A stretch of 33,722 bases of DNA from the NCBI GenBank assembly GCA_021646405.1, contig SOER01000038.1, positions 1 to 33,722 on the forward strand, given 5' to 3'. The stretch's first letter is position 1. The number at the start of each line of letters is the position of its first letter. The notes beneath the pieces are model-generated. The model did no database searches and was not told where the DNA came from. It saw only the letters and a program-made list of their open reading frames with translations. Both the position numbers and the translations under genes were made by a program. This DNA is from Candidatus Loosdrechtia aerotolerans (GTDB taxonomy: Bacteria > Planctomycetota > Brocadiia > Brocadiales > Brocadiaceae). This document shows, piece after piece, positions 12,093 to 21,585 of this stretch.

Positions 12093-13544
12093 TCACCTGA
12101 CAAGCTCACCTAACTGTATATGTTTACGAACCACGTCATCAATGTCCTCAAGATATTTCCCTTCCGGAGGATAACACTTGATACCATGAATATAAACATC
12201 CAGGCCGTCGAGTTCTTCTGTTCTGGATACCCTTATGCCAATGGTGTGTTTCAATCCGAAGAATATAGCAAAGCCAAGTCCTCCTGCCCATGCAATAACG
12301 GTTAGAAAGGCAATAAACTGGGCAAGGAATTGCTGTCCTGAGCCTGTAATCAATCCATTTACACCCCCATACGAACCATCGGCAAATATGCCTACGGCAA
12401 GGAGTCCCCACAGCCCGTTAGCCGCATGTACGGATACAGCCCCAAGCGGGTCATCTACTTTAAATTTGTGTTCAACCAGCCAGGTAGACCCACACATCAA
12501 TAGGCCGCCAATAAGTCCGATAATGACGGAAGCCCAGGGCGCTACGTATGCACATGGCCCTGAAATCGCCACAAAACCTGCTAAGGCACCATTACAGGCC
12601 TCGGCTACATTGGCTTTTTTTGTCTTTATGTATGAATATAGGATGACAATAACAGCACCGGCAACACCGGAAAGAAAGGTATTGGATGCGATGATTGAAG
12701 ATCTTAGATCTGATATGGCAAGCGTGCTTCCGGCATCATAAGCGAGCCATCCAAAGGCAAGGATAATCGTACCAAGGATTACATATGCTATGTTATGCCC
12801 TGGCAATACATTTACGGAACCGTCCACATTATATTTACCAATCCTTGGACCCAGTGCCCACGCGCCCATAAACGCACATATTCCACCTGCTGCATGCACC
12901 ACGCCAGAACCTGCAAAATCCTTGACTCCGACCCCTAATGGCAACTTTGCCAGCCAACCCTCACCCCATATCCAATGACCGTAGAATGAGTAAACAAAGA
13001 TATACACCAGAAAACACGCCAGTAAGTAGGCAGAAAATTTAATCCTTTCTGCCACGGCACCGGCTATAATGCTGCCAATAAAGGTTGCAACAACCGCCAT
13101 AAAGATGAAGAGGAGAATCGTTTTTACATCGTAAGTCTCTCCGAGAAGCATAAAACCACTGTAACCAATAAAGGGATTGCCTTTATCAAGCCCGGGCCCA
13201 AGTTCAGAACCTCCGAACATAAGCGCAAAACCAAAAAGCCAGAAAATAAATGCACCTGCCGTTGTCGCCATGAAGCAATGCGTCATATAGCTGAGCATAT
13301 TTTTGGAACTTACAAGGCCACCTAACAATACAAATCCTGCCTGCATAAACAGGATAAGGAAAGCCGCCATGAGTATCCAGGCAAAATTTCCTGAGATATT
13401 CAATCCTTCGAGGCTGTGAGAAAACGTCAATGTACCGTTGGGATCACCTGCATGCGAACAACGTACGCAGAACAAAACCAGGGGGATACTGTATAAGATT
13501 AGCCATCCGAGAGATTTTAATTTCGCGCCTGATATGTTGAGCAT
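12093..13544 (-). CDS. amt: Ammonium transporter (Amt/MEP/Rh family)
   Basis: Amt proteins are trimeric inner-membrane channels for ammonium uptake. The product is 483 residues with an N-terminal hydrophobic signal-like segment and about eleven further membrane segments. The two conserved pore histidines are present, at about residue 217 in DFAGSGVVHAAGG and about 373 in DDPLGAVSVHAANG. GAVAERIKFSAY and the FYGHWIWGEGW segment are also typical. The C-terminal cytoplasmic tail is short and includes the ELDGLDVYIHG element that contacts PII in other systems. The start was set at the third codon of the longest frame because GGAG (13551-13554) abuts the earlier ATG but sits six bases from this one. 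It is the last gene of a PII-like/PII/Amt operon, 12 bases after glnK, consistent with PII control of transport. Confidence 0.95.
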   Translation of the reverse strand: MLNISGAKLKSLGWLILYSIPLVLFCVRCSHAGDPNGTLTFSHSLEGLNISGNFAWILMAAFLILFMQAGFVLLGGLVSSKNMLSYMTHCFMATTAGAFIFWLFGFALMFGGSELGPGLDKGNPFIGYSGFMLLGETYDVKTILLFIFMAVVATFIGSIIAGAVAERIKFSAYLLACFLVYIFVYSFYGHWIWGEGWLAKLPLGVGVKDFAGSGVVHAAGGICAFMGAWALGPRIGKYNVDGSVNVLPGHNIAYVILGTIILAFGWLAYDAGSTLAISDLRSSIIASNTFLSGVAGAVIVILYSYIKTKKANVAEACNGALAGFVAISGPCAYVAPWASVIIGLIGGLLMCGSTWLVEHKFKVDDPLGAVSVHAANGLWGLLAVGIFADGSYGGVNGLITGSGQQFLAQFIAFLTVIAWAGGLGFAIFFGLKHTIGIRVSRTEELDGLDVYIHGIKCYPPEGKYLEDIDDVVRKHIQLGELVR

Positions 13545-13556
13545 GAGCATCTCCTT

Positions 13557-14045
13557 TTAAGGTTGAATATAGTTATTAACATCATGTTTGTCTTTTTGTA
13601 ATTCTGAATAAATCAGGTTTTTACTTTCAACATCCTTCTTAAGAACCTCAACGACCTCGCTGTTTTCTATCTCCGCCTTGGGAGATAATTTCACAACCCT
13701 TCCATTCGCAATGGCACGGTCTCCTACCTCGCCGGTACTTATGCGAATAGCCGATTCTATATGTGATATGAATATCTTACCATCTCCGTTTGCGCCTGTT
13801 TGTGCCCCGTCAATAATCATGTTAACAACCTGATCTACTTCCGCATCCTGAACCACTATTTCAAGTTTTAACTTTTGATGTAAATCTACCTTGTATTGCC
13901 TGCCGCGCCATACCTGCACTGCGCCTAATTCATTTCCGTGTCCTCTAACCTCACTTACCGTCATTCCATCTTTTCCTATCTCCTGTAACGCCGCACTTAT
14001 TGCTGGAAAACGCTCAGGACGAATAACTGCCTCTATTTTCTTCAT
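13557..14045 (-). CDS. glnK: PII family nitrogen regulator with C-terminal extension
   Basis: PII proteins sense ATP/ADP and 2-oxoglutarate and, in the GlnK type, block Amt channels with their T-loop. The protein is 162 residues from the chosen start, about 50 longer than the usual 112. The T-loop region is intact with WRGRQYKVDL (the tyrosine at the usual uridylylation position), and the nucleotide-binding B-loop and C-terminal signature are present as TGANGDGKIF and SAIRISTGEVGDRAI. The final 50 or so residues are a charged extension. The longest frame starts at 14060, but GGAGG lies at 14054-14058 overlapping that ATG and eight bases before the ATG at 14045, which also yields the canonical opening MKKIEAVIRP. 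Its place directly before amt supports a GlnK role. Confidence 0.92.
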   Translation of the reverse strand: MKKIEAVIRPERFPAISAALQEIGKDGMTVSEVRGHGNELGAVQVWRGRQYKVDLHQKLKLEIVVQDAEVDQVVNMIIDGAQTGANGDGKIFISHIESAIRISTGEVGDRAIANGRVVKLSPKAEIENSEVVEVLKKDVESKNLIYSELQKDKHDVNNYIQP

Positions 14046-14053
14046 ATTCGTTT

Positions 14054-14058
14054 CCTCC
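14054..14058 (-). promoter_or_regulatory. Shine-Dalgarno GGAGG that sets the glnK start
   Basis: GGAGG on the minus strand overlaps the first ATG of the long frame (14058-14060) and is spaced eight bases from the ATG at 14045. This favours the shorter protein. Confidence 0.7.
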
Positions 14059-14078
14059 ATAAATTTCTATAATAAAGG

Positions 14079-14501
14079 TTACGCGTAAACATCGGTAACT
14101 TCTAACGGTTTTTTTTCAGGTATTTCATCTATGTTTAGTTCTTCTTTCGGCTGCATCCTTACCCATCTGCCTTTTTCTGTTGTAACGCCCTCTTGAATTA
14201 CTTCAGACTTTAATCTCAACGCATACTCATACTCCCCGTTGTTTCCATCTTTTTCATACAAAAGATTGTCGATGTTACTAACCACTTCATCAACGTCTTC
14301 GTCAATCAAAATAACCTCAATCTTTGCATGTGATATCAAGTCTACAACATATTCCTCACCCCGCCAGAAAACAGTCCGGGCTGCGCTTTGCTGACCATCT
14401 CTTATGTATGCTATTTTCAATACAGGATATCCCATTAATTTAAAATAGTTTTTTGCAGCATATACCGTCCTGGGTTTCACCAATGCTGTTACTCTTTTCA
14501 T
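14079..14501 (-). CDS. Divergent PII-like protein lacking the nucleotide-binding B-loop
   Basis: The first 75 residues of this 140-residue protein follow the PII fold: MKRVTALVKPRTVYAAKNYF, then VFWRGEEYVVDLISHAKIEV, with the tyrosine of the T-loop kept. Past there it departs from the family. Where PII has T-G-x-x-G-D-G-K-I-F, this protein has YEKDGNNGEYEYALRLKSEV, and the C-terminal RTGE signature is replaced by VTTEKGRWVRMQPKEE and an acidic tail. ATP/2-oxoglutarate binding of the normal kind is therefore doubtful. It lies 18 bases upstream of glnK in the same operon and is the first gene after the sigma-54 promoter. AAAGG about eight bases before the ATG fits translation. It could act as a PII partner or a constitutive T-loop donor; this is inference. 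Confidence 0.8.
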   Translation of the reverse strand: MKRVTALVKPRTVYAAKNYFKLMGYPVLKIAYIRDGQQSAARTVFWRGEEYVVDLISHAKIEVILIDEDVDEVVSNIDNLLYEKDGNNGEYEYALRLKSEVIQEGVTTEKGRWVRMQPKEELNIDEIPEKKPLEVTDVYA

Positions 14502-14567
14502 TGCTTGTACCTTTCATTAAAAAATTTTGTAATCTTAGACGCATACGTCTTCCTCGGTGCTCTAGAA

Positions 14568-14582
14568 GCAACCAAAGTACCA
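14568..14582 (-). promoter_or_regulatory. Sigma-54 promoter of the PII-like/glnK/amt operon
   Basis: On the minus strand the sequence reads TGGTACTTTGGTTGCT, against the sigma-54 consensus TGGCACG-N4-TTGCW. The GG and GC dinucleotides are exactly ten bases apart as required. Transcription would start about a dozen bases further on, leaving roughly 50 bases of leader before the ATG at 14501. The gene upstream on the same strand encodes a sigma-54 activator with GAFTGA, the expected partner. Confidence 0.8.
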
Positions 14583-14601: not shown

Positions 14602-14632
14602 AAAGCCACTTAAGAGATTCCTAAGTGGCTTT
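14602..14632 (-). terminator. Intrinsic terminator behind the sigma-54 activator gene
   Basis: An 11-bp stem (14602-14612 with 14622-14632, core GCCACTTA/TAAGTGGC) is followed on the minus strand by a run of six T. It lies about 190 bases past the activator's stop codon and 20 bases before the sigma-54 promoter, so it separates the two transcription units. Confidence 0.85.
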
Positions 14633-14821: not shown

Positions 14822-16216
14822 TTAATCTTTAAAAATATCTTTATTAATATTGTACTTTTTCATTTTCCTGTAAAGGGTTTTCACATCGATTCCGGAAATC
14901 TTTGCAGATGAATCAATCCGTCCTTTACATCGTTTTAATAACCTGGTTATGTAAATGGTTTCACAGTATGCAAGAAAATCCTCCAGACTGCTGTTTACAA
15001 TGTGATCATTGTCTACATCTCCAAATTTTTCTTTTACTTGTTTTTGGTTGGGTATTGGCAAATTTACCTCATTAATAACATGATCTTTTGCCATTATTAT
15101 CATGCGTTCCACCAGGTTCTCAAGTTCCCTTACATTACCGGGCCAACTGTAAGACATGAAGATATTAAGGACGTTTTGTGAGATAGACGTAATCTCCTTT
15201 TTAAACACCTTGTTATATTTTTCAATAAAGTGTGTTACAAGTAATGGGATATCCTCACGTCTTTCTTTTAACGGCGGCAGTTGTATCGGGATAACATTTA
15301 AGCGGTAATATAAATCTTTCCTAAAACATCCTTCTTCCGATAGTTTATTTAGGTCTTTATTGGTAGCAGCGAGAACCCTAACATCAACCTTTATTGTCTG
15401 ATTCCCGCCAATTCTTTCAAAAGATTTTTCCTGTAATAATCTTAAAAGCTTTGTTTGCATGGAGAGCGGCAGATTACCCATCTCGTCAAAAAAGACCGTT
15501 CCCGTATCTGCATATTCAAATTTACCGATTCTTTGTTTGGTTGCCCCGGTAAAGGCCCCTTCCTCGTGTCCGAAGAGTTCACTTTCCAGCAAGGATTCAG
15601 GCAAGGCACTGCAGTTGATAATTACAAAAGGACAATTTTTTCTCTTGCTGTGATGATGAATAGCGTGTGCTACAAGTTCCTTCCCGGTACCTGTTTCACC
15701 AGTAATCAAGACAGTTGCATCGGTATTTGCCACCTGAAGGATAGAGTCGTAAACGCGCTGCATTGTATGTGATTTCCCTATGATGTTATCAAGACTAAAC
15801 CTCTCTTCAAGCTCCTTTCGCAAGGTCCTGATTTCGGTGATCAGGTTTTGTCTTTCAAAGGCACGTTGAATAACCAACCGTATCTCTTCAGCAGAAACCG
15901 GTTTGGTAACATAATCGTAAGCTCCCATTTTTATTGCGTCAACGGCAGTTCTAATACTCCCGTATGCCGTCATCATGATTAATGATACATCCGGAAATTC
16001 GAGTTTTAATTGCTTCAATAATTCAATTCCATCCATTTGAGGCATTTTAAGGTCCGCAATAACCAAGTCATACGATTCTTTTCGATATGAATCCAGCGCT
16101 TCCAATCCATCCAAAGCCGTATTGACCTCATACCCCTCTTTATTCAGAAGAATCCTGATACTACCGAGGACATATTCATCATCTTCCACCACTAATATCT
16201 TCTTTTTTCTAACCAT
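14822..16216 (-). CDS. NtrC-class sigma-54-dependent response regulator
   Basis: The 464-residue protein has the full three-domain layout: a receiver domain (about 5-118) with phospho-acceptor Asp55 in VIADLKMP and Thr84/Lys106 switch residues, an AAA+ sigma-54 activator domain (about 145-375) with Walker A GETGTGKE (174-181), the sigma-54 contact loop GAFTGA (221-226) and Walker B TVFFDEMG (241-248), and a Fis-type helix-turn-helix at the C-terminus (SSAKISGIDVKTLYRKMKKY). GGAG about nine bases upstream fits the ATG. It lies between the sensor kinase genes and the PII/Amt operon, all on the same strand. The natural inference is that it is phosphorylated by the neighbouring kinase and activates the sigma-54 promoter at 14568-14582. 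Confidence 0.95.
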   Translation of the reverse strand: MVRKKKILVVEDDEYVLGSIRILLNKEGYEVNTALDGLEALDSYRKESYDLVIADLKMPQMDGIELLKQLKLEFPDVSLIMMTAYGSIRTAVDAIKMGAYDYVTKPVSAEEIRLVIQRAFERQNLITEIRTLRKELEERFSLDNIIGKSHTMQRVYDSILQVANTDATVLITGETGTGKELVAHAIHHHSKRKNCPFVIINCSALPESLLESELFGHEEGAFTGATKQRIGKFEYADTGTVFFDEMGNLPLSMQTKLLRLLQEKSFERIGGNQTIKVDVRVLAATNKDLNKLSEEGCFRKDLYYRLNVIPIQLPPLKERREDIPLLVTHFIEKYNKVFKKEITSISQNVLNIFMSYSWPGNVRELENLVERMIIMAKDHVINEVNLPIPNQKQVKEKFGDVDNDHIVNSSLEDFLAYCETIYITRLLKRCKGRIDSSAKISGIDVKTLYRKMKKYNINKDIFKD

Positions 16217-16428: not shown

Positions 16429-16797
16429 ATGCAAAAGATAAAGATTGTAGACCACGAACAACTGCTTTATTCGGAACCCGATGTCGTAATAGATAAAATT
16501 GTCGATAATAAGAGATACCAATACTGCAGGTTCTCTGCGCAGGATAATCTCTATAAGGAAATAAGCAGTATTGCCAGGCGCTGGAGAGACGGGGAAATAT
16601 CTCAAAAAACTGCTTATGAACTTTTAGAGATTGCATCGCTCCCTTATGAGCGATGGATTTTTGACATTATTGTTGATCTGGCTAAAGACACTATGCATCT
16701 TGAATACATTGCCTATGATGACGAACGTAAGAAGGTAAAGGCAATTGCATTTTTACAACACGGCAGTGAAAGATCATATAACATCCAATATAAATAA
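16429..16797 (+). CDS. Hypothetical protein, 122 residues, inside the ammonium-sensing cluster
   Basis: No family is recognised. The product is charged and soluble, with no membrane segment, signal peptide or cysteine pattern. It looks like two parts: an N-terminal half ending with a helical stretch (KEISSIARRWRDGEISQKTA, then YELLEIASLPYERW) and a C-terminal beta-rich part (IFDIIVDLAKDTMHLEYIAY, later KKVKAIAFLQHG). AAAGGAG (16415-16421) is seven bases before the ATG, an ideal ribosome site, so translation is likely. It is transcribed divergently from the sigma-54 activator (213 bases between starts) and ends eight bases from the convergent kinase gene. Its position suggests a part in nitrogen signalling, possibly under sigma-54 control, but nothing in the sequence shows a mechanism. 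Confidence 0.75.
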   Translation: MQKIKIVDHEQLLYSEPDVVIDKIVDNKRYQYCRFSAQDNLYKEISSIARRWRDGEISQKTAYELLEIASLPYERWIFDIIVDLAKDTMHLEYIAYDDERKKVKAIAFLQHGSERSYNIQYK

Positions 16798-16805
16798 AAA
16801 TCCGG

Positions 16806-19800
16806 TTAAAGAGGCAACGTAATTTGAATAGTTGTTCCCATATTAAATTTACTTTTGATATCGATCCTTCCCGAGTGTTCGGTAATAATATTATAGCATA
16901 TCCATAAACCCAACCCTGAGCCGGTTCCTTTTTTCGTACTAAAAAATGGCTCGAAAATTTTTGGCAGGTCCTTATCCGGTATCCCACAGCCATTATCGGT
17001 AAACTTGATTAACAGATGTTCACTTTCTATCTGTGTAACGATATTGATGATCCCGCCGTACGGCATGGCATCAATGGAATTAAGTATAAGATTGGTAAAT
17101 ACCTGTTCTAATTGATTGGGATGGCATCTTACCTGGGGAAGATTATTGCTCAAAAATTGATTTACCATTATATTATTTTGGGCGAGCTTTCTTTGTAATA
17201 AGCTTACAACATTTTGAACATGATGGTTAATATCGTGGTCTCCTTTTTCTTCCAGGATGTTCAGATTAGATTCCAATAAACGCCTTACGATTCCCGCTAT
17301 TCTATAAATGCCTTCCATCACAAGTTCCACGTATTTCCTTTTTTCATCGTCTTCGGATATATTTTCCAGGAGTAACTGTAAGTAATTCGTGATACCCTCC
17401 AGTGGGTTATTGATTTCGTGGGCAACACTTGCAACAACTCTTCCCAATGAGGCTAACTTCTCCGCTTCTACAAGTTGTGTCTCCAGCTTTCTTTTGGCAG
17501 TTATATCCCTGTAGACAGACCTGATGGCAATAATTCTACCGCTATTATCGCAGATATGGTTATCATTCAAGCTCACATCTATAATACTTCCGTCTTTTTT
17601 TACAAGCTGCAGTTCTAATCCTTTGGCAAGCTGTCCTCTGAAACGTTTTGGTAACAGCTCTTCCATGATCTTTCGCGCCTTTTCTGTCTGAAACTCAAAG
17701 ATGTGTCTTCCAATAAGTTCTTCTTTTTTATACCCAAGGATCTCTGCACCTGTTTGATTGCAGTTAATAATACTACCATTTTCATCATTTGTTATATAGA
17801 TGTCCGGAGCATTATCATAAAGGTCTCTATATCGCTCCTCCGATTCTTTTGTTTTTGCAAATAATCGCGTATTTTCTATAGCGATAGCTAGCTGCATAGC
17901 GATCTGTTCTAAGATAATAAAATGTTTCTCTGAGAAGTTATTTACTACTTTGCTTCCGAAATTAATTGTTCCAATGATAGCGCCTTTATACTCAAGGGGA
18001 AACCCCAGTCTGGATTTTATCCCCTCTTTGATCAGCATCCGATCTGACCAAAAGGCGCTTTTTGAGGTATTTCTCACGATGAACGGCTTACCGGTAAACG
18101 TTACCCGTTCCAGTAAGCTGCCTTCTTTTGGGTACCAATCACCCTCGTTGATTGCAGTATGATCGTACGGCTGATCTACTGCCAAAACCTCAAATCTTTG
18201 TGTTTTCTCATTTAACAGGACAATACTGATCCTGTCAAAGTCAATAATACGCTTAAGCTCGTTACTTATAGCTTTAAACATTTCAGGCATAAGACCTGAT
18301 GTGATGATTTTATTTATATTGTAGATAATCTCCTTCTGATGCTCCATTTGCCACATCTTGGTAATATCCTGTATCAATTCGAGTACCTGCACTATATTTC
18401 CCTGACTGTCCTTTATCGGCGAACCGATAAAATGGTAATATCTCTTTTCATTATCTTTGCCAATTACTAACCTTTTTATTTCTTGTATTTTACCGGTTTT
18501 GAATACGCGGTTTGCCGTACAGTCCTCAGGGGGTACTTCTCCGCAGCCGAAGATGCTATGGCAATTAGGTACTAAAAAACTGTTTATCTTGCCAAACCGG
18601 TCTTCGAAGGGTTTATTAGCCCATGCTATCCTCATATTGCTATCTATAAGGCAGAGATAAGCACCGATCTCAGTCACTATCAATTCCAGTTTCTTTTCCT
18701 CCCTCTCCAGTTCTAAACGCGTTTTTTCAAGATCGCTCAGCATATACAAAGTGGCCTCTCTGAAGTCTGACAGTTCACCGATAAGTTTTTTTATCTGCCT
18801 CATATCCCTGGCAACACCGACAATTTCTGTTACCTCTCCTTCGTTATTCCGAATAATACGTCCACAAAAATGCATGGGGATGTCTTCGTTATTACGATTA
18901 CGATAGGTAATATCGTAATCTTTTAACACATCATCATTTAAAATAGTACTCCACTTCCTGTTCGCAATAGGATTACCTTTATCATGCAAGATGATACTTA
19001 CATCGTTGCCAATCAAATCTTTTTCTTCATAGCCTAAGAGATTTAACGTTGATTTATTAACTGTTTTTATCTTGTTATTTTTGTCAACTACAATTAAAGT
19101 GTCAGTCATACTCTCGATTATATTATCTACGTAGGCCTTCGATACGGTAGTCTTTTGTAAGTCCTCGGTCATTTTATTTATGGAAGTAACAAGCATCTCG
19201 ATCTCATCCCTTGAATTCACGGATATCCTTTTATCGAGATCACCACTAGCAATGTCACTCATGGTGCGGGATATTCCTGATATTGGATTTGTGATCAATC
19301 TTCTGATCAGTATATACGTAATGGAAATTATGATTCCGATAGAACACGATGCGATACCAATAAGTATTATAATATTTGTCTTTAAGTTAGCATAAAGAGG
19401 TTCCAAAGGAGCGGTAACGCTTATAGCACCCCTTAAGTCACCTATTTTGTATCCCTCTTTTTTATATCCTGAAACATCTAGTTCTCCTGAGGGTTCGCCA
19501 TGACACTGGAGACATTCTTCATCTATATAAAGAGGAACGATATAACGAAATATCTTCTTGTTGTTCTCGTCTAATGATTCACCGGAAAACGCATCCTGCG
19601 GCTTTTGTTTTTCCATATTTTTTAAAACTGCCGTTTCAAAATCATCGGGTACATTATGAGCGTTTCTGTATTTCAGACTTATTTGTCGGATGGTATAAGG
19701 CGTGCTTTCGCTGATGCGGCGGGAAATCCCACTACCAACACTCGCCGGGTTAAGACCCTTAAAAGCCCTATTGCCACTCACGGGGTCGGTATTGATAATA

Positions 19801-19982
19801 TCCTGAACGCCTGCCAGATAACTGCGGGTAATCTCTACCTCCTTTACCAGGATCTCTGCCTGTTTTTTTATCTCTTCCTTTAATAAATAACGCTGCCTTT
19901 GGATAATCCACGTAAAGCAGATCCCCAGTATAAGTGCCAGGGTAAGACTAATGAATAAGATACATTTAGCACCCAGTTTCAT
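16806..19982 (-). CDS. Membrane sensor histidine kinase with periplasmic c-type heme domain
   Basis: The 1058-residue kinase starts with a membrane segment (about 8-27), then a periplasmic Tll0287-like (DUF3365) domain of about 170 residues holding a c-type heme motif CLQCH (157-161), a second membrane segment (about 202-226) and a HAMP domain (227-280). In the cytoplasm follow PAS 1 (about 285-395), a coiled coil, PAS 2 (about 430-545, with Cys474, Cys480 and Cys488 in NCHSIFGCGEVPPEDC), a GAF domain (about 560-710), PAS 3 (about 715-830), HisKA with phospho-acceptor His855 in VAHEINNP, and HATPase with Asn968, DNGCGIP and GTGSGLGL. No receiver domain is attached. The ATG overlaps the end of the upstream Amt gene by 17 bp and lacks a clear ribosome site, pointing to translational coupling. 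The heme could sense redox state, NO or another ligand; the true signal is unknown. Confidence 0.93.
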   Translation of the reverse strand: MKLGAKCILFISLTLALILGICFTWIIQRQRYLLKEEIKKQAEILVKEVEITRSYLAGVQDIINTDPVSGNRAFKGLNPASVGSGISRRISESTPYTIRQISLKYRNAHNVPDDFETAVLKNMEKQKPQDAFSGESLDENNKKIFRYIVPLYIDEECLQCHGEPSGELDVSGYKKEGYKIGDLRGAISVTAPLEPLYANLKTNIIILIGIASCSIGIIISITYILIRRLITNPISGISRTMSDIASGDLDKRISVNSRDEIEMLVTSINKMTEDLQKTTVSKAYVDNIIESMTDTLIVVDKNNKIKTVNKSTLNLLGYEEKDLIGNDVSIILHDKGNPIANRKWSTILNDDVLKDYDITYRNRNNEDIPMHFCGRIIRNNEGEVTEIVGVARDMRQIKKLIGELSDFREATLYMLSDLEKTRLELEREEKKLELIVTEIGAYLCLIDSNMRIAWANKPFEDRFGKINSFLVPNCHSIFGCGEVPPEDCTANRVFKTGKIQEIKRLVIGKDNEKRYYHFIGSPIKDSQGNIVQVLELIQDITKMWQMEHQKEIIYNINKIITSGLMPEMFKAISNELKRIIDFDRISIVLLNEKTQRFEVLAVDQPYDHTAINEGDWYPKEGSLLERVTFTGKPFIVRNTSKSAFWSDRMLIKEGIKSRLGFPLEYKGAIIGTINFGSKVVNNFSEKHFIILEQIAMQLAIAIENTRLFAKTKESEERYRDLYDNAPDIYITNDENGSIINCNQTGAEILGYKKEELIGRHIFEFQTEKARKIMEELLPKRFRGQLAKGLELQLVKKDGSIIDVSLNDNHICDNSGRIIAIRSVYRDITAKRKLETQLVEAEKLASLGRVVASVAHEINNPLEGITNYLQLLLENISEDDEKRKYVELVMEGIYRIAGIVRRLLESNLNILEEKGDHDINHHVQNVVSLLQRKLAQNNIMVNQFLSNNLPQVRCHPNQLEQVFTNLILNSIDAMPYGGIINIVTQIESEHLLIKFTDNGCGIPDKDLPKIFEPFFSTKKGTGSGLGLWICYNIITEHSGRIDIKSKFNMGTTIQITLPL

Positions 19983-21585
19983 GTTGTTTTAAGGCTCTTA
20001 ATTCTTCTTCCATCTTTTTCATCTTGAGTTCTCTACCGACAGCAACTTTAGCAAAATTCTCCAATTGCTCTACTTTTTTCTTCAACTCGTCCCGCGATGC
20101 CTCTAATTCTGACGTTCGTTTCTTTACGTCTTCTTCGAGATGTTCCTTTATATGTTCAAGTTCTCTTGTCCTTTCTTTTATTTTATCCTGTAATGCAACA
20201 TTCAGGTCCTGTACTCTTGAGATTTTTACAAAATCAAGCCATGAAGTAACATCTGCATATTCACTAATATTCAAACCTTTTACCTCTTCTTCACTGCTGA
20301 TCCGGATACCAATAAATCTCTTTAAGCACCAGAAAAACAAAAGACCTGTTGGAAAGGCCCATGCAAATGCTGCAATAATTCCCAAACATTGAACTCCCAC
20401 CTGGAGAAGCCGGTTAGCATGCGTTATAGAAAATGCAGATGCGGGAGTAAACAGACTTACGGCCAACGTACCCCATGCACCACAAAAACCATGAACGGAA
20501 ACAGCGCCTACAGGATCATCCACCTTTAACACCTTTTCAACAAAATCCTTTGCTAATATTGCAATAATCCCGGCACAGAATCCTACAACACACGCATAAA
20601 GAGAACTCACCCTGCTCGATCCGGCAGCAATGGCGACCAATCCACCCATAATTCCCAAAAGGATTTCTGCAGCATCCAATCTCTTGTTTTTCAGTCTCCC
20701 AAAGGCAACGGCACAGACACCTGCAACTGCACCGGCAAGGGTCGTGTTGATAATTACTAAGCCTATACTTGTATCCACCTGTAAGATAGCACCACCATTA
20801 AATCCAAACCAACCAAACCAGAGAAAGAAAGTACCTATTGTGGCCAGAGGCAGGTTATGGCCGTACATCCTGTTTGCAGTACCATCCGGGTTGAATTTTC
20901 CCATCCTGGGCCCCAGCATAATGGCTCCCGATAATGCGACCCATCCGCTTATAGAGTGGACTACCGTGGAGCCTGCAAAGTCAATAAACCCTAGCTTTCC
21001 GAGCCAGCCAAATTGGTTATGGTGAAATAAATGTCCCCATGCCCAGTGACCAAAGACAGGATAAATAAGACTTACGACAAAAATAGTAGTACAGATATGC
21101 GTTGAGAGTTTTGCCCTCTCTGCGAAGGCACCGGATGTAATGATAGCTGCGGTGCTTGCAAATACCAGTTGGAAGAATACAAAGGCATAGCCCAGAGAAG
21201 TTAAGTGAGTGTCTATACCGAAAAACAAAAAATTACTTGTGCCAAAATAACCTCCATAGCTTATGCCAAACATTATTCCAAAGCCGAGAAGAAAGTAGGT
21301 TATTGAGCTTACAAGAAAATCTAATATGTTCTTTATCGCAACGCTTATCGCATTTTTTGCCTGTACAGAACCTGCCTCAAAGGCGGTAAATCCTACTTGC
21401 ATGAAAAAGACCATGCTTGCTGAAACGATAAGCCAGATAAAATTCAGCTTTTTCTGAAATAATTGCAAAGGTGTTTCTGCATATACGGCACAGGAGGGAT
21501 AAAAGATTATTATGAGAGTAATGAGGCTTACAATGGTAAGTAAAATGAGCCTGTTATTCCTGATGCAACTCCGCCTGCCGGCCAT
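19966..21585 (-). CDS. Sensor-type Amt protein with C-terminal cytoplasmic coiled coil
   Basis: The first 440 residues are an ammonium transporter domain with a signal-like first segment, both pore histidines (His210 in DFAGSTVVHSISG and His365 in DDPVGAVSVHGFCG), and GAFAERAKLSTH. After the last membrane segment comes an extra region of about 85 residues predicted as a long coiled coil (about 455-535), including KERTRELEHIKEHLEEDVKK and FAKVAVGRELKMKKMEEEL. The latter pattern is the kind of linker that normally joins sensor domains to PAS or kinase domains. Here it ends in a stop, and the next gene, overlapping by 17 bp, is a histidine kinase. Amt-kinase fusions acting as ammonium sensors are known, including one from the anammox bacterium Kuenenia. 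This looks like a two-protein version. Whether it transports ammonium, senses it, or both is not decided by the sequence. Confidence 0.9.
   Translation of the reverse strand: MAGRRSCIRNNRLILLTIVSLITLIIIFYPSCAVYAETPLQLFQKKLNFIWLIVSASMVFFMQVGFTAFEAGSVQAKNAISVAIKNILDFLVSSITYFLLGFGIMFGISYGGYFGTSNFLFFGIDTHLTSLGYAFVFFQLVFASTAAIITSGAFAERAKLSTHICTTIFVVSLIYPVFGHWAWGHLFHHNQFGWLGKLGFIDFAGSTVVHSISGWVALSGAIMLGPRMGKFNPDGTANRMYGHNLPLATIGTFFLWFGWFGFNGGAILQVDTSIGLVIINTTLAGAVAGVCAVAFGRLKNKRLDAAEILLGIMGGLVAIAAGSSRVSSLYACVVGFCAGIIAILAKDFVEKVLKVDDPVGAVSVHGFCGAWGTLAVSLFTPASAFSITHANRLLQVGVQCLGIIAAFAWAFPTGLLFFWCLKRFIGIRISSEEEVKGLNISEYADVTSWLDFVKISRVQDLNVALQDKIKERTRELEHIKEHLEEDVKKRTSELEASRDELKKKVEQLENFAKVAVGRELKMKKMEEELRALKQHETGC

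Follow-up and report, generated by a model that had tools for sequence, protein, structure and literature searches.

In the E. coli complex, R47 of GlnK plugs AmtB. In methanogens, NifI1 and NifI2 form a tandem PII pair whose products act together, and both are thought to join in sensing ATP and 2-oxoglutarate; as at the locus described here, two PII genes lie side by side, although the NifI target is nitrogenase and not Amt. In the wider PII-like superfamily (PstA, SbtB, CutA), the PII fold is likewise combined with altered ligand use. Each PII ligand site combines the B- and T-loops of one subunit with the C-loop of an adjacent one, as seen in GlnK structures (PMC8395244), and Q39 of GlnK3 either binds Mg together with 2-oxoglutarate or, in the ADP state, hydrogen-bonds K58 (PMC3198391). 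GlnK2 of Archaeoglobus fulgidus is a natural PII decoupled from 2-oxoglutarate, but it still binds ATP and ADP (PMC3198391). E. coli has two PII paralogues per cell, GlnB and GlnK, both with complete ligand sites, and their mixed trimers have been documented (van Heeswijk 2000, as cited in PMC5448240). The closest described genes are those of the anammox bacterium Kuenenia stuttgartiensis: according to PMC7438415, amt_4 (KSMBR1_3716), nrp_3 (KSMBR1_3717) and nrp_4 (KSMBR1_3718) form one operon, as judged by overlapping reads, and are upregulated under nitrite limitation, nrp_1 and nrp_2 are upregulated under ammonium limitation, and all four nrp products are treated as GlnK PII regulators.

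We analysed a stretch of 33,722 nucleotides from Candidatus Loosdrechtia aerotolerans (the window), in which a divergent PII paralogue precedes a second PII gene and an ammonium transporter gene (Table 1).

Table 1. Features of the PII paralogue and its surroundings in the window
Feature	Position	Strand	Basis
Ammonium transporter (Amt) of the operon	12093..13550	-	Pfam
Partner PII with Q39E and a C-terminal extension; B-loop intact, core probably starting with MKKIEA at 14045	13557..14060	-	
PII paralogue lacking the B-loop, 140 aa, ATG start	14079..14501	-	ORF call, Pfam, phmmer, family profile
Conserved G-R-W-V-R-M of the paralogue, residues 111-116; counterpart G-R-V-V-K-L in the partner's C-terminal extension	14154..14171	-	alignments
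Conserved A-L-R-L-K-S of the paralogue, residues 94-99, against PII A-I-R-I-R-T; last PII-fold strand in the model	14205..14222	-	alignments, model
Short variable loop of the paralogue, residues 83-93, where PII has the B-loop and following strand	14223..14255	-	alignment, model
T-loop of the paralogue, residues 35-52; W46-R47-G48 and Y51 kept	14346..14399	-	family alignment
Sigma-54-type promoter, TGGTACTTTGGTTGCT, 81 bases upstream of the paralogue start	14567..14582	-	pattern scan
Terminator-like hairpin between the response-regulator gene and the paralogue	14602..14632	-	
NtrC-type response regulator: receiver, AAA+ with GAFTGA, Fis HTH	14822..16216	-	
Orphan gene of 122 aa, conserved in all copies of the module	16429..16797	+	
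Histidine kinase: Tll0287-like, HAMP, PAS and GAF domains	16806..19982	-	domain search
Amt-like protein with C-terminal extension, putative ammonium sensor; 3' end overlaps the start of the kinase gene	19966..21585	-	

A PII paralogue that lacks the B-loop

Residues 1-87 of the paralogue match the Pfam P-II family (PF00543) at 22.3 bits as a single sequence, below the curated cut-off of 25, whereas the partner PII, with which it shares 28% identity, scores 92 bits. GlnK/PII chains were matched at 1e-8 by PHMMER, and a profile of the paralogue family matched PII/GlnK chains in the PDB at values reaching 4e-18; these profile matches stop at residues 80-87, just before the B-loop. AlphaFold2, given a 12-sequence alignment, returned a PII-like fold at moderate confidence (pLDDT 64, pTM 0.56), with strands at residues 2-8, 27-34 and 49-65 and helices at 10-22 and 67-84; the second helix leads into a loop modelled with low confidence, and one strand, at 94-99, comes after it. 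A control model of the partner PII at the same alignment depth (pLDDT 62) has two short strands after the B-loop (91-95 and 99-101). In a fold search with the paralogue the best matches were again GlnK/PII chains, mostly over about 80 residues, and PstA appeared only at rank 34; so by sequence and by fold search the paralogue is closest to GlnK, in contrast to PstA, SbtB and CutA. With GlnK/GlnB-type PII proteins it shares the core beta1-alpha1-beta2-T-loop-beta3-alpha2, W46 and Y51 of the T-loop, E62, and a gene position beside amt. The similarity and the predicted core fold thus place it in the known PII family, as a subfamily in which a conserved B-loop deletion is predicted to have removed the ligand site. 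As a separate observation, a SulP-family (sulfate permease) transporter (L003, G000:C11:145729-145980) carries a C-terminal degenerate PII-like domain that scores 22.8 bits, below the cut-off.

Comparison of 13 paralogues, their 13 partners and 20 other Brocadiales PIIs (E. coli numbering; contact list from PMC8395244) revealed where the paralogue departs from GlnK/GlnB-type proteins. On its own side of the site, residues 37, 39, 41, 84, 87 and 92 are lost in all 13 paralogues and K90 in 12. The ATP/ADP-binding B-loop T-G-x-x-G-D-G-K is absent throughout, and the strand that follows it is deleted as well: G87 is a gap in every copy, G84 is K, E or T, K90 is N or S in the 12 copies, and F92 is a gap or L. 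G37 is replaced in all 13. Among the Mg/2-oxoglutarate ligands, Q39 has become V, G, P, S or I in every paralogue and K58 is H or N in 10 of the 13. In the T-loop, by comparison, Tyr51 is kept in all 13 and R47 in 10; the family f2 has Gln in place of R47 and a T-loop shortened by three residues.

Residues donated to the neighbouring subunit have mostly been retained by alignment: R101 in 12/13, lysine at 103 in 13/13, and Ile or Val at 64 (V64) in 13/13; T29 is K or R in all 13. The C-terminal R-I-R-T-G-E of PII is represented by R-L-K-S, and the register between A-L-R-L-K-S and A-I-R-I-R-T is the same in BLASTP, MAFFT and hhalign, although the position of R-L-K-S in space is not certain because the preceding segment is deleted. 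In the alignment the loss of the pocket is therefore one-sided: own-side residues are gone, and the basic residues lent to a neighbour's site (R101 and K103) remain. Beyond this point the family has a C-terminal signature of its own, E..AL.LK...GRW, which ordinary PIIs lack; E92, A94, L95, L97, K98, G111, R112 and W113 (paralogue numbering) are among the invariant residues.

These results bear out the observation, and part of the interpretation, of an earlier note on this DNA, made from its letters and open reading frames, which had pointed to the N-terminal PII likeness and the retained T-loop tyrosine, and had proposed that the protein is uncoupled from ATP and 2-oxoglutarate and could form mixed trimers with its PII neighbour. 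Such trimers are plausible; loss of the site is strongly supported by the sequences of 13 genomes and by purifying selection (below). Two of its motif statements need adjusting. The T-G-x-x-G-D-G-K-I-F motif is indeed absent from the paralogue and its 12 relatives, although by deletion of the B-loop and not by replacement; the RTGE motif is changed, as it said, but not simply gone, given the aligned R101 and basic residue 103.

Distribution, selection and history

Orthologues were found in 13 of 62 Brocadiales genomes, in three families (Brocadiaceae 6/33, f4 4/17 and f2 3/9). All 13 reach 169 bits or more along almost their entire length. Ordinary PIIs stop at 72 bits, in most cases for residues 1-80 alone, which makes the boundary of the family sharp. 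At E<=1e-18, about 356 Planctomycetota genomes from outside the order yielded none, and neither did a search of plasmids; a strict pattern scan, the one search that extended to other phyla, matched a single locus, that of Jettenia ecosi (Brocadiaceae). Pairwise Nei-Gojobori estimates of dN/dS for the divergent segment (residues 81-115) lie between 0.07 and 0.37, mostly under 0.25 and similar to the N-terminal core; the ratios are rough, since several dS values are near saturation. Together with the invariant new motifs, they indicate that the segment is under purifying selection and that the paralogue is a maintained protein.

The paralogues form one group in the tree (100/99). The Kuenenia-type copy (G010, Brocadiaceae; locus L040) groups with the f4 copies in the tree, for paralogue and partner alike, and this suggests a passage of the entire module from one family to another. 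The trees, which have long branches, neither show nor reject a sister relationship of paralogue and partner (AU p 0.24 for one clade); a tandem duplication is read from their adjacency and from a C-terminal GR(V/W)V extension common to both and absent from the other Brocadiales PIIs examined.

Seven genes of L040 match KSMBR1_3716-3722 in order and number, and by gene order nrp_4 (KSMBR1_3718) is very probably the Kuenenia orthologue of the paralogue. The portions of PMC7438415 drawn on here present nrp_4 as an ordinary GlnK PII regulator, with no mention of B-loop loss; the family described here is without a B-loop.

Gene neighbourhood and promoter

In all 13 genomes the paralogue lies directly upstream of a second PII gene and an Amt gene. 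Twelve of the 13 contigs are long enough to give the full order: Amt-like sensor, histidine kinase, divergently oriented orphan gene (about 122 codons), NtrC-type regulator, paralogue, PII and Amt. The order is partial in L045, and in L039 (12306-16901, genome G031), where paralogue, PII and Amt are intact, the reading frames of sensor and kinase appear to be interrupted or truncated. The sensor and kinase, which are separate overlapping genes in the window (16806-21585), are fused in f2 into one protein of about 1250 aa (L044:12105-15896), in which the Tll0287-like domain of the window's kinase was not found. The orphan gene (16429-16797 in the window) matched no Pfam or PHROG family. It marks the module, being present in all 13 paralogue genomes and three more: G025 (at a contig edge), G037 and G049. 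The last two have related orphan-Amt-PII sets without the paralogue (L073, G037:C27; L072, G049:C35); in both, an integrase-like gene adjoins the PII gene, and the PII of G049 has Ile at the expected K90 position.

A sigma-54-like GG-N10-GC element is located at -70 to -84 from the paralogue start codon in all 13 loci, matching at least 9 of 12 positions in 12 of them and 7 in the G031 copy; among shuffled upstream regions, no more than 0.25% gave a match of at least 9/12 at that position. This element and a terminator-like hairpin separate the paralogue from the upstream regulator gene, which fits the earlier note's description of the paralogue as the first gene of its operon. A circuit in which the Amt sensor and kinase act, by a putative phosphorelay, through the regulator on the sigma-54-type promoter, and so on paralogue, PII and Amt, is plausible. 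Conceivably the paralogue might also act on the separate Amt sensor, as had been proposed.

The adjoining PII had been taken for a normal one. It does adjoin the paralogue, but is not quite normal: residue 39 is Glu in 13/13 partners, compared with Gln in 20/20 other Brocadiales PIIs examined, and the protein has the C-terminal extension. A literature search found no published Q39E PII mutant. In the window copy only, R103 of the partner is Ser.

GlnD uridylyltransferase (PF08335) was searched for in six genomes; none was found in five (G000, G010, G012, G031 and G041), one was found in G033, and control genomes gave matches. Uridylylation of Tyr51 was rejected on these grounds.

Possible modes of action

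The fold family, the conserved B-loop deletion, the constraint on the new segment, the fixed neighbourhood and the sigma-54-type promoter are all seen in the data. To account for them we tentatively favour, at somewhat less than even odds, a PII-fold subunit that has no ATP/ADP/2-oxoglutarate site of its own, keeps its T-loop, and regulates its operon's Amt jointly with the PII encoded next to it, most likely as mixed trimers. Since a PII site is assembled from two subunits, one-sided pocket loss is what mixed trimers would predict. The paralogue would lend R101 and K103 to its partner's nucleotide site and form none itself; a mixed trimer would then have fewer than three sites answering to ATP/ADP, some of its T-loops would no longer be released by 2-oxoglutarate, and with the partner's Q39E the complex could be biased to holding Amt when ammonium is plentiful.

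Mixed trimers acting on Amt are supported by the invariable paralogue-PII-Amt adjacency and shared C-terminal extension, by the retention of R47 and Tyr51, by purifying selection on the divergent segment, by the Kuenenia nrp_4-nrp_3-amt_4 operon and its response to nitrite limitation (PMC7438415), and by the precedent of E. coli GlnB/GlnK (cited in PMC5448240). The substitution of T29 and the altered f2 T-loop weaken this explanation. The moderate AlphaFold model, which leaves the placement of R96 and K98 (paralogue numbering) in space uncertain, also counts against it, as do the PII-Amt pairs of G037 and G049, which indicate that such a pair can exist without the paralogue.

A homotrimer of the paralogue could instead be a ligand-blind Amt plug, made under the Amt sensor/NtrC circuit and shutting Amt by its amount and not by ligand state. 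R47 and Y51 are kept in the Brocadiaceae and f4 copies, and transcriptional control at the sigma-54 promoter could stand in for ligand control. We nevertheless regard this as unlikely: f2 has Gln for R47 and a shortened T-loop, the adjacent partner could already do the same job, and in GlnK it is ADP, with the contact between Q39 and K58, that sets the Amt-binding state of the T-loop (PMC3198391), and this contact is missing in the paralogue. It is similarly improbable that the paralogue plugs no Amt and has a different target (for example, the kinase, the response regulator or a new ligand), linking the Amt sensor to transcription. The strongly conserved C-terminal signature would suit such a role, as would the genes for sensor, kinase and regulator that lie upstream in the 12 loci with contigs of sufficient length; however, the gene adjoins PII and Amt, outside the kinase operon, and has its own promoter behind the hairpin.

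A working GlnK with its nucleotide pocket rebuilt from the divergent residues is very unlikely. The short loop of the Brocadiaceae copies does contain a Gly-rich DGNNGE, but the loop is not conserved between families (TPTSLPLGEEA in f2), most copies have nothing that corresponds to G87 and F92, and the losses extend to Q39, G37 and K90. A decaying duplicate of the partner, suggested by the apparent tandem arrangement and degraded motifs, is scarcely credible, and conservation and dN/dS rule out a pseudogene: the gene is intact in 13 genomes of three families with invariant new motifs and low dN/dS, and its apparent Kuenenia orthologue is expressed and regulated in the data cited from PMC7438415.

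Significance

PII proteins are defined by their sensing of ATP/ADP and 2-oxoglutarate. A subfamily that selection has kept without this site, in a constant place next to a PII and an Amt, provides a natural test case for the roles of T-loop and trimer when no ligand is bound. For Amt-based ammonium sensing, the module also offers a candidate response regulator and, in the sigma-54-type promoter at 14567-14582, a candidate target and output; PMC12918730 describes the regulator of the related sensor Ks-Amt5 as still awaiting identification. The findings bear on the control of ammonium uptake where ammonium is fuel, as in anammox, compared with bacteria that only assimilate it, a difference named as an open question in PMC7438415. 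As a doubtful but specific idea, PII trimers in anammox bacteria might be obligately mixed, with one type of subunit contributing only half of a composite nucleotide site; the Amt gate would then have fewer ligand sites, be blind to 2-oxoglutarate, and answer instead, through sigma-54, to an Amt-based ammonium sensor.
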